Source: Mycteria americana
Lineage: Eukaryota > Chordata > Aves > Ciconiiformes > Ciconiidae
DNA length: 64,000 bases
Direction: 5' to 3'
Assembly (NCBI RefSeq): GCF_035582795.1
Contig: NC_134367.1
Span: 116,088,062 to 116,152,061, forward strand
Shown here one piece after another: positions 8,604 to 64,000 of this stretch (position 1 is its first letter; the number at the start of each line of letters is the position of its first letter). A model generated the notes under the pieces. The model saw nothing but the letters and a program-made list of their open reading frames with translations, was not told the origin of the DNA and did not search any database. The translations under genes were made by a program, and so were the position numbers.

Positions 8604-11600
8604 GCTCTGCAGTCTGCGCCTGAAGAAACTCACGGTGCTGAAAGAGCTGGACAAAGAGCTGAGCTCTGTACTTATCGCTGTGAAGATTCAGGTAGGCTCC
8701 TCTCCTTGCTGCCCCCTGATGGCAGCAAGCCCATCCTTGTGCCCTCTGTGAAGTGCTGGTCTGCATGTCCCTTGCCTCGTGCCAGCCCCTTGCTTCTGTC
8801 TCGGTTAGCACCCCTGGGGAGATTTTGGCTCTCAGGAAGGTGGGAATGATGCCCCAGGGACAGCAGCAAGCTGCCCGGTGCTGGTTTGTATCAGGGATGA
8901 ATTGATTAGGCCTCTGCACTGGGACAGAGCGTCTTGCTTCCCTGCCTGCCTCAGCCAAGAACCTCCTCTTGAGCTGCTGTTCAGAGTTTGGCATCCCCTA
9001 CCCCACTGTTCCCGACCCTTTAGACAGGCTCAGCGCTAGGTGGTTTCTGATAGTGCCCTCCATCTGATTCCCCTCCCTGGGGAGTGAAGGGTGGGAAGGG
9101 AAGAGTGCAAGGGATCAGCGGCTCTGTGCATGACTTCTGCTGACATTTGCACCCTGTGTGATCTCACTGCTGCCTCTGCTGTCCCCTCCCTTTCTCTGTG
9201 CATCCCTGCTAGGCCTGGTGCCTCTACTTTGAACCAGGCAGAAGGGAGGGGAGAGGATCTTTGTCACCAAGGGGAGAGGGAATTTGCCCCCATCTTGGTA
9301 TGTGTGATCCTCCTCCCTCCCTCTCTGCAGCTGGTGGTGAAGAGATGGGTCCCTGTGGGTGTAGGCACATTCTTTCCACCTGCCAAAGGGCAGCATGGGA
9401 GCAAGATGCCTCTTGAGTATGCTGTCCTTGCCACAGCTCCCCTAACCCAGCTGGGATCCTGCTGTCCTTCCTTCGTTCTTGTCAGCCAGCGGTAAAGCTG
9501 CTGATCCCATTGAAAGCACTGTGGGGTGGGAGCTTTGCGCTCCCACAGAGCTCTTTGTGCCACACACATTAGGATCTAAATCCTGGATTAGTGCTGGAAG
9601 CTGCAGTATTAGTGGAGCTCTGGGAGGCGGGGTTTGCCTTCATGGCAGACCTGATTCACTTGCACAGAAGGACCTGAAAGTGAAATGTGTGAAACCTGGG
9701 GCCTGAAGTGAGGACAGCAGAAGGATGCTGTGGTCTACACACTATTGGTCAATGTCCTGCTTTGCTGGCCTTTCCGTCACTGTGTGTATGATGCCATTCA
9801 GGAGAGCTGAAAGCACTGGGCTTTCAGCCCCGAGACCCCCGAGACCTGTGCCCCTTTGGTGCAGGCTTTAGCAAGGGAACAACCTGGGCAGGAGAGAGCT
9901 GGCTGGCCCCTGGAAATGTGGGAGCAATCAAGGCTGGGCCACAGGTCCCAGCAGCTCAGGACTGGGGGGCTGGGAGCCAGCTGGGGGCTGTGGGTCCCAC
10001 ATGCCTGGGAGGGCTAGGCTGGTCCCTCACTCCCTTTATGTCCTGCACTGTCGGCCCAACCTGTCTGTGCTTCTCTGGTCTGGGGAACCTTGGGCTCCCA
10101 TGCAACCCCCTTATGCTGGGGCTTCCATGTGCTGAGCGTGTATGTCCTCAGCTGCTGCCTCTCATGCACTGCAAATGTGAGACTGTGGAAGAGGCTGCAC
10201 AATGGGACTCCAGCTCTTTCAAACAGATCACCTCCATCCCTGCCACAGGCTACCCTTGCACCCTGTTGGCAAAAGAAATTAACAGGCCTCAGCAGTGACT
10301 GTTTGAGGCCACAGGGGCTCTTCACTGCAGGGCTGCTTTCCCTGGCAGGGAACAGAGACTGCATTCAGGGTCTTAATCTAGACATGGTCACCTCCTCTCT
10401 GCATGGCCACATACCAGTGGCTGCATGCTGGTGTAGGCTCCCTGCAAAGCTGAAGGAAGCTGGAGGAGAATGCTTCTGCCCACATTACCCTGTGGCTCGA
10501 CACTCATTGTGGGAGTGGGGTGTACTTGTGTGCCTCCCCAGGCTGCTTCCACCTGCCTAACCAGCCACCTTGGCAGGGTCGGGGACTGCTGAGCCTTCCT
10601 GGAAGGCAGATGGAAGCTGTAGGCAGCTTCAGCGCAGCCTGCCTACAGAATGGCCTCAGATGGATCCATCCCTTCTGCTCCTCTCCTAGGTAACAGATGA
10701 GTCACGCTAGCAAGAAGCTGTTTGAAGGCTGCCCAGCGAGCATTGCCATCTCCATCTTTTGGATGGAAACAGCCAATGCATGTAATTTGTGGAGGACCTG
10801 CAAGATCCCAAGGGGACAGCTGGGGACTAGTGGAAAGGGGAGCTATATTTTCTCTCATTTCAGGAGTAGCTCTGTTGGGTTAAGGAAGTTGCCTGTCAGG
10901 AAGTTGCTGCTCTGAGAGGCAGGTTGCATGTAAACAAAGCTCTGACCCTGCCTGAGTTGGGCCGGCACCAAGACAACAGCCCCAGCACTGGAGACAGTCT
11001 GCTCAATGAATGTACATGACCCAAAGGATAGTGTAAACCTGTCTAGAATATCTGATCTCCTCACAGTGATCATGCCCTTCTGGTCTTCAAAGACAGCTTC
11101 CAAGTGTGGCATGTGCTGTTATTTGCTCCTTCATCCGAAAAGACCTCTGTCAAAGGACTAAGGGAGCTTTCATTGTCTATGGAACATACCCATTTCCCAG
11201 AGGTGATTTGAATATTTAATGTTCAGTGGCTTCCAGTGAGATAAAGTCTGAACTACTGTGAAAAAGGGGACTTACTCTCATATCATTTGAGTGGGTTTTA
11301 AACCTTTATCCCTCATTATTTGTTTTAACAGACTGGAGATGTCATAGAGCATTTCCTTCTGTGTATTGTTCAGCATGGCATTAAGAAATTCAGATGTGCC
11401 TGGCTCGGCTCCATAAAGGTGCAGATATCCTGGTGTTGTAACTGATTATGGTGTGAAGGGAAACATGGTGCTCCCTCTCGGCAAAGACTTACTATAATTC
11501 AGAAACACCAGTCTTGAGCCATGAATAGAGGAAACAATCGAAGAAAGAAGAAAACAAGCCCCAGCACTCCCAGACCTTTCAGCTCCTGTGACAGGTGCTG

Positions 11601-62182: not shown

Positions 62183-64000
62183 ATGTCCACCATGGTGTAC
62201 CCAAGGGAGGAGAAACTGGACAAGCTGAGTCAAGAGGAGATAATTTCCAACACCAAGCTGGTGATGCAAGGGCTGGAGGCACTAAAGAATGAACACAACT
62301 CCATCCTGCACAGCTTGCTGGAGACCATCAAGTGCCTGAAGAAAGATGAAGAAGCCAATCTTGTGCATGAGAAATCCAACCTGCTCCGCAAGTCAGTGGA
62401 GATGATTGAACTGGGGCTCGGAGAAGCTCAGGTGAGAGTGGTGGGTAACGTCCTAGGTGTTACCCAGGATGGATAGGGGAAGGTGAACATGTGGCCGTTC
62501 CCCATAAGCTACAGGGGCAGCAAGGGGCTGAGTGTAGAAGGACAGTGTGACCCTGAGGGTGGGCCCTAAGCATGCACATGAGGGAGATACAAGATTGTGG
62601 TAGTTACTGACTAGGACTCTTGACAAGGTGATGATGGCACTGTCCAACCACCTGAATGCTGTGGAGTCAGAGAAGCAGAAGCTGCGTGCTCAGGTACGGA
62701 GACTGTGCCAGGAAAACCAGTGGCTGCGCGATGAGCTTGCCAACACCCAGCAGAAGCTGCAGCGCAGTGAACAAACCGTGGCTCAGCTGGAAGAGGAGAA
62801 GAAACACCTTGAGTTCATGAACCAGCTGAAGAAGTATGATGAGGATGTCTCGCCTTCGGTATGCCCTAATCCTGTCAAGCATCCACCTTTGGGGGTAGGG
62901 GAGGTTGGACCAGCAGGATTGTCTAGGTGTGATAGCATTGCCCTGCATTTTGCCCCTTCCCAGCTACTGTGCACAGCAATGCCTGTAACTAAAGGGAGCC
63001 TGCATGGGTCAGAGTCTCTGGAAGAACATGGAATAGCATGCCAGGATGTGCTGGGAAAATTTGGCTTTATTAGTTTTGTTGTGTGTGGGGAAGATGGTGG
63101 CAGAGACAACAGGGGAAGTTAAGGGTGTTGGTGGGCTGCAGCAGGGAGGAGAGTTTGGCAGCTGACTCAGCCCAGGCTGCTGCTCTCCTCTGAGAACCAA
63201 CAGCATTGTGATTCCTATCCTCTCAGGAGGAGAAGGAGGGTGACTCCACCAAGGACTCTCTGGATGATCTGTTCCCAAATGAGGAGGAAGAGCATGGTCC
63301 TGGATGTAAGTGTTTGGTCATGCATGGTTGTTGGCTGTCTCTGTTCAAGCCTGCTGTGCTAACTGTGCCCCTGTTTATTCTTCTGTGCCTGTAGTGCCCC
63401 ACCAGCACAGCAGCGCAGTGGCAGCTGCCCAGCAGGGAGGCTATGAGATACCTGCACGCTTGCGCACCCTCCACAACCTTGTCATCCAGTACGCCTCACA
63501 GGGACGCTATGAGGTGGCTGTGCCACTCTGCAAGCAGGCACTGGAGGACCTGGAGAAGACATCAGGCCACGATCACCCTGATGTGGCCACCATGCTCAAC
63601 ATCCTGGCACTAGTGTACAGGTGAGCATGGTGGGGAGGGCAGGACTGGGCCAGGAGAGCTTTCTGCTTCTCCTGTTTACCAGGACAGCATGTTCTGGTGA
63701 CAGGGAGCTCCCCCAGCTTCCAGTGGTTTGCTTTCAAAAAGGTTTTGGCACAGATGAGGTATTTGGACTGCCAAACTCTGATATAACTAGGGACTGGCTA
63801 AGGTAGGGAGAAAAAGGGCTGTAGGGGCTGGGTCTGTATGGAAGGAGGACTGTTGTTCACAGTTCTGCTTGCTATGGGCTGTGGTGTCCAAATCCCGAAT
63901 AACTGGTTGGCTTTGCACTGTAGGGATCAGAATAAATACAAAGAGGCAGCACACCTCTTGAATGATGCTCTCTCCATCCGTGAGAAAACTCTGGGCAAAG
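62183..64000 (+). CDS. KLC4: kinesin light chain 4, 3'-partial
   Basis: The kinesin-1 light chain couples cargo to the motor through its TPR domain. Coding exons: 62183-62431 (exon starts about 62165), 62628-62858, 63227-63305, 63395-63620, and 63924 to beyond 64000. Start [12 protein letters not shown] matches the KLC1 start ...MSTMVY. Residues 1-160 form the heavy-chain-binding coiled coil ([40 protein letters not shown]). The LFP-acidic autoinhibitory motif is at 175-177 ([16 protein letters not shown]). TPR1 follows ([40 protein letters not shown]). The linker [20 protein letters not shown] and the [15 protein letters not shown] text are KLC4-type, and the neighbours MRPL2 and CUL7 agree. 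The N-terminus is more KLC1-like than in human KLC4. TPR2 onward lies past the window. Confidence 0.93.

Follow-up and report, generated by a model that had tools for sequence, protein, structure and literature searches.

Evidence for a third PACS paralogue, linked to a kinesin light chain gene in Mycteria americana and present across sauropsids

A stretch of 64,000 nucleotides of Mycteria americana DNA, here called the window, carries an intact gene of the PACS family that forms a clade separate from PACS1 and PACS2, lies on the same DNA as a kinesin light chain gene and occurs together with PACS1 in reptile species. We give a probability of about 0.88 to the reading that this gene, PACS3, is a functional third PACS paralogue, most likely an early-vertebrate duplicate with a kinesin light chain neighbour that was kept by sauropsids and lost by mammals, with birds carrying PACS2 and PACS3. 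A preliminary description of the window had proposed such a third paralogue, and our results support that interpretation. In human, PACS1 and PACS2 are both genes of neurodevelopmental disease. The PACS family consists of two paralogues according to the accessible part of a 2025 preprint. PACS3 is annotated in many genomes, and in open-licence full text we found neither a description of a third PACS gene nor recognition of PACS3 as one. A survey of ohnologues (PMC12954441), in the part of its text available, covers only those with human counterparts, and this limit makes it blind to a gene like PACS3.

Splice-site modelling gave a gene on the forward strand at 8604-30751, with 23 coding exons and a stop codon ending at 30751. 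AG acceptors precede all 23 exons and GT donors follow 22, the 23rd ending in the stop; the phases are consistent and the frame is open throughout. The earliest coding exon inside the window (8604-8691, +; LCSLRLKK...KIQ) is part of the N-terminal C2/cargo-binding domain, and it is this exon that the preliminary description had correctly taken as the start. In a turtle relative of full length, about 55 residues stand ahead of the point matching 8604, and motif patterns for the first PACS coding exon gave none in window positions 1-8700. We infer that the window starts downstream of the true first coding exon and that the 23 modelled exons are exons 2-24. By shifting the end of the fourth model exon from 17681 to 17702 (17540-17702, +) the sequence SGPKIKAS is obtained as in relatives, and the product of the window exons becomes 847 amino acids long.

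Two exons at 16762-17349 (+) hold a 13-residue adaptor-type motif with ETELELTF and RYKNR, whose final arginine aligns with the PACS1 disease residue R203. The acidic-cluster exon (17860-17951, +) encodes an 11-residue cluster including a glutamate that matches PACS2 E209, while the adaptor motif has a role in binding. Three linker exons follow at 25253-26024 (+), the last with RPRSTS, which matches the PACS2 Ser437 context RGRSTS, and the exons of the C-terminal Pacs-1 domain (PF10254) occupy 26149-30751 (+). The protein matched PF25332 (E 2.9e-40, 138 bits, cut-off 27) and PF10254 (E 7.4e-194, 645 bits, cut-off 25). Both domains, the adaptor-type motif (pattern ET[DE]LxLTF) and the acidic cluster (SFSSEQExSDD) place it in the PACS family, and each of these two motifs is present in 116 of 120 PACS3 entries (the best 120 of 3751 matches). 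Between exons 17 and 18 lies a 33-base in-frame cassette exon (28988-29020, +) encoding 11 residues, which is present in some database entries of PACS3. Among the matches listed, 39 of 120 PACS3 entries have its motif, as compared to 0 of 240 for PACS1 and PACS2, so it may be a paralogue-specific alternative exon. Near the second PACS intron, between the exons at 8604 and 16762, there is also a broken reverse-transcriptase-like open frame (14833-15531, +), similar to a fragment of a CR1 LINE.

When the window protein was searched against the databases, the best 120 of 3751 matches, grouped by entry names, were all sauropsid (94 bird, 13 squamate, 9 turtle and 4 alligator). The closest of the listed matches was the protein of the cormorant Phalacrocorax carbo, at 99% identity, and the other listed birds ranged from 89 to 98%. 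A pseudogene is ruled out, as the frame is open and the bird proteins listed are 89-99% identical, in agreement with the preliminary description, which had called the protein intact over 23 exons with conserved motifs. The same identities, together with the E-values, exclude a chance match, and an assembly chimera is ruled out by the 94 bird entries of the gene, counted irrespective of their neighbours. The naming of these 120 entries is unsystematic: they are called PACS1, PACS1-like, PACS2 or PACS2-like, some have no gene name, and none is named as a third paralogue. The bird and reptile entries with these names among the matches listed are all PACS3 and differ in name only.

For comparison, PACS1 was searched with an N-terminal fragment from structure 9z30, and the best 120 of 3680 matches comprised 37 mammal, 34 turtle, 27 squamate, 1 alligator, 5 amphibian, 14 fish or shark and 2 unnamed entries. 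The best 120 of 3831 PACS2 matches were mammalian apart from three unnamed entries, with no sauropsid PACS2 among them. By best BLAST score all 120 PACS3, all 120 PACS1 and all 120 PACS2 matches sorted with their own group, 34 of these 360 being the reference rows themselves. These 34 proteins and the window protein were used for a tree of 35 rows, which was unrooted, drawn at its midpoint and built from vertebrate sequences without an invertebrate outgroup. Three separate clades were obtained at 100/100, namely PACS1 (17 rows), mammal PACS2 (6 rows) and a sauropsid PACS3 clade of 12 rows that unites the window gene with bird, alligator, turtle and squamate copies. The separate clade expected in the preliminary description was thus recovered.

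The name PACS1 is used for this gene in chicken, pigeon, kiwi and other birds, as it would be if the gene were simply the sauropsid PACS1. However, the PACS1 clade, outside which the window gene falls, unites turtle, squamate and alligator PACS1 with PACS1 of mammals, amphibians, fishes and shark at 100/100, and turtle PACS1 is just 62.2% identical to turtle PACS3. Both genes are present in Chelonia mydas, Gopherus flavomarginatus, Alligator mississippiensis, Pogona vitticeps, Hemicordylus capensis and Paroedura picta, which refutes the identity with PACS1 and leaves that reading with practically no weight.

A closer rival is that the gene is the sauropsid PACS2, relocated beside KLC4 and evolving fast, so that no third paralogue exists. 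Mammal PACS2 and PACS3 are neighbours in the unrooted tree, many PACS3 entries are named PACS2 or PACS2-like, and the lack of sauropsid PACS2 among the best PACS2 matches also speaks for this reading; the topology alone, with mammal PACS2 beside sauropsid PACS3, is equally expected under orthology. The distances speak against it. The window protein is 61.7% identical to human PACS2 and 62.1% identical to macaque PACS1, which are 61.1% identical to each other, as compared to 73.3% between turtle and shark PACS1. Mean path lengths were 0.90 for PACS2-PACS3, 1.10 for PACS2-PACS1 and 0.98 for PACS3-PACS1, and within PACS1 they were 0.22 for mammal-reptile, 0.44 for tetrapod-ray-finned and 0.56 for bony-shark. 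The path of 0.90 thus stands against 0.22 for the mammal-reptile split of PACS1, although evolution within the clades was only 1.4 times faster than in PACS1 for PACS3 (0.185/0.132) and 1.7 times for PACS2 (0.199/0.115) in matching splits. When the PACS2-PACS3 path is divided by the mean factor of 1.57, calculated by hand, about 0.57 is left. This roughly equals the shark split and clearly exceeds the mammal-reptile split, and it would place the separation of PACS2 and PACS3 at about the time when jawed vertebrates arose, or earlier.

The same contrast was observed in a comparison that does not depend on rooting, where we counted the columns that do not vary inside any of the groups (10 amniote PACS1, 6 PACS2 and 12 PACS3 rows). 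PACS2 agreed with PACS3 in 42 columns, PACS1 with PACS3 in 31 and PACS1 with PACS2 in 25, while all three differed in 14 and were the same in 327. Without the alligator PACS1 the three counts were 43, 33 and 27, and with all 17 PACS1 rows they were 21, 21 and 19, in the same pairing order. As a control with true orthologues, PACS1 of mammals (3 rows) and of sauropsids (6 rows, without alligator) was set against PACS3, which gave 120, 3 and 2. Were PACS3 the sauropsid PACS2, a ratio like 120:3:2 would be expected and not 42:31:25, and orthology is therefore disfavoured. The lean of the columns towards PACS2 suggests that PACS2 and PACS3 are perhaps sisters. Distances and column counts, together with the duck primers described below, make up the case for a third paralogue; we consider a relocated sauropsid PACS2 quite improbable.

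Among the matches listed, the pattern RxRS[TM]S is present in 114 of 120 PACS3 and 119 of 120 PACS2 entries, and MFL[SP]KK in 119 and 98 of 120 entries of the two; neither was seen in any of 120 PACS1 entries, and this sharing is a further point for the orthology with PACS2. Conversely, PTIFL is a PACS1 feature (109 of 120 entries) that none of the 120 listed PACS3 entries has, and GITRLIC is found in all 120 PACS3 entries and 1 of 120 PACS1 entries listed, where GISRLIC is the common form (106 of 120). PACS3 thus shares with mammal PACS2 both Pfam domains, the adaptor motif, the acidic cluster, the Akt-type RxRSTS site and the VMFL junction, but differs from it by an identity of only about 62%, a different linker, GITRLIC in place of GISRLIC, a 6-residue insert before SGPKIKAS in the alignment and a position on another chromosomal block than human PACS2. 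With PACS1 of mammals, reptiles, amphibians and fishes it has in common the domains and a segment that begins with ETELx and runs on for 20 residues, while the identity is again about 62% and the RxRSTS pattern is lacking from the listed PACS1 entries. The preliminary description had called the protein PACS2-like in several segments with a different linker; its overall identity is about the same to PACS1 and PACS2.

Downstream of PACS3, sequence comparison identified exons of a cullin of the CUL7/CUL9 type (31843-42408, -), of which more N-terminal exons probably extend to about 47.2 kb, and two exons of MRPL2 (49500-50206, -). They are followed by three 5' coding exons of a kinesin light chain gene (62165-63620, +; the first at 62165-62431). 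The Protein Data Bank matches of this last gene include KLC1 and KLC2, with KLC4 not among them; from its linkage we take it to be KLC4, as the human order at 6p21.1 is CUL7-MRPL2-KLC4. The gene order in the preliminary description is thus confirmed by sequence, the name KLC4 being taken from linkage. From the PACS3 stop codon to the first kinesin light chain coding exon the distance is 31 kb. The window cullin scored higher against Cullin-9 than against Cullin-7 in the Protein Data Bank (512 vs. 390 bits and 301 vs. 262 bits). Its frame, read onward, stops near 31840, with about 1 kb left before the PACS stop codon. Cullin-9 carries a C-terminal RING part, for which about 1 kb is too short. 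The window gene may be either a CUL7 that evolves slowly or a form near the ancestor of both.

The early vertebrate genome duplications most likely yielded PACS3 together with its kinesin light chain neighbour, an origin that fits the distances, and the gene would then have been kept in birds, crocodilians, turtles and squamates. Human has two PACS genes and PACS3 is absent there, so it would have been lost somewhere along the mammal line. A later duplication of a single gene or segment is an unlikely source of the third paralogue, though it would agree with the finding that no PACS3 copy from fish, amphibian or mammal, or otherwise from outside the sauropsids, is among the matches listed (best 120 per search), and with a rate-corrected PACS2-PACS3 distance that lies close to the shark split without clearly predating it. 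Against it stands the kinesin light chain gene 31 kb away, in the block that carries KLC4 in human, much as human PACS1 is paired with KLC2. Repeated pairing of PACS and KLC genes is a prediction of block duplication and argues against a later single-gene origin. The corresponding pairing of PACS2 with KLC1 had been stated too loosely in the preliminary description, since both are at human 14q32 but well apart.

With regard to function, PACS3 is most likely a cytosolic sorting adaptor, by analogy with PACS1 and PACS2. We would expect its N-terminal C2 domain to bind cargo with acidic clusters and, via ETELELTF, coat adaptors, and the protein to enter the WDR37 complex, for which PACS1 and PACS2 are modelled as rivals in the accessible part of PMC12154601. 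In TRAIL-induced apoptosis, Ser437 of PACS2 acts as a switch according to the part of PMC8626491 available, where Akt and 14-3-3 appear in a cited title. Because PACS3 has the PACS2-type Akt context RPRSTS, which is absent in PACS1, a switch through Akt and 14-3-3, as in PACS2, is probable.

For PACS2 in birds, a study in duck gives qPCR primers (PMC12681742), whose decoded residues, as printed in the part of the paper available, are IATTPT and GISRLIC. The corresponding strings are TIATPTMSM and GISRLIC in marsupial PACS2, and VPPSTMAM and GITRLIC in the four duck and goose PACS3 copies examined, so that the primers encode residues missing in these copies, another point against PACS3 being the sauropsid PACS2. 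GISRLIC is also a PACS1 string, and thus only the IATTPT primer points to PACS2 as such. Each primer has at least 8 mismatches in the stretch of window exons 21-23 and 5 or 6 at best elsewhere in the window, a comparison between different species. As good though indirect evidence, the decoded primers suggest that birds probably have PACS2 too. In Table 1 of the same paper, as far as it was available, the forward and reverse beta-actin primers are printed identical, so the primer table has errors. PACS2 is also listed, by name only, in a bird brain paper, and so is Pacs2 in a soft-shelled turtle paper.

Bird PACS1 was found in none of the 118 named entries among the best 120 of 3680 PACS1 matches, as compared to 62 of 118 for non-avian sauropsids, and on these searches birds appear to be without PACS1. 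Very GC-rich genes can hide from assemblies, and the absence is therefore probable and not proved. If it holds, the genome of the window probably has PACS2 and PACS3. In one paper PACS1 is listed among the genes that birds lack, and yet as annotated in chicken. In our tree the chicken protein named PACS1 (row P0030) groups in the PACS3 clade, and the annotation would be PACS3 misnamed, which suggests why PACS1 could be counted as lacking from birds and at the same time as annotated in chicken. PACS1 and KLC2 were not found by term in the main texts of Lovell 2014 and of the 2021 refractory-region, 2019 missing-gene and Silkie chicken papers, nor were PACS and KLC2 in the 2026 dot-chromosome paper. 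The preliminary description had sought PACS1 and PACS2 in the same genome; in part this was seen, as PACS1 accompanies PACS3 in the six reptile species and bird PACS2 is indicated by the decoded primers.

On the bird side the apparent loss is that of PACS1, which leaves PACS2 and PACS3, and bird PACS3 could cover work done by PACS1 in mammals. In mice, double knockout of Pacs1 and Pacs2 gave 0 of 121 pups vs. 7.56 expected, so loss of both is not tolerated, according to the available part of PMC10582149. If birds are without PACS1, they would show under natural conditions whether a third family member meets the need exposed by the double knockout. On balance we lean towards a scheme in which mammals kept PACS1 and PACS2, birds lost PACS1 and kept PACS2 and PACS3, PACS3 took over an essential shared role and the chicken "PACS1" is in fact another paralogue.

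In Alligator mississippiensis, a PACS1-type protein from a 57,964-base contig (row P0204) bears the name PACS2 isoform A. No other amniote PACS1 row has a branch as long as that of this protein (0.21). Crocodilian PACS1 may be fast-changing or lie in DNA that is hard to sequence, perhaps a step toward the loss in birds.
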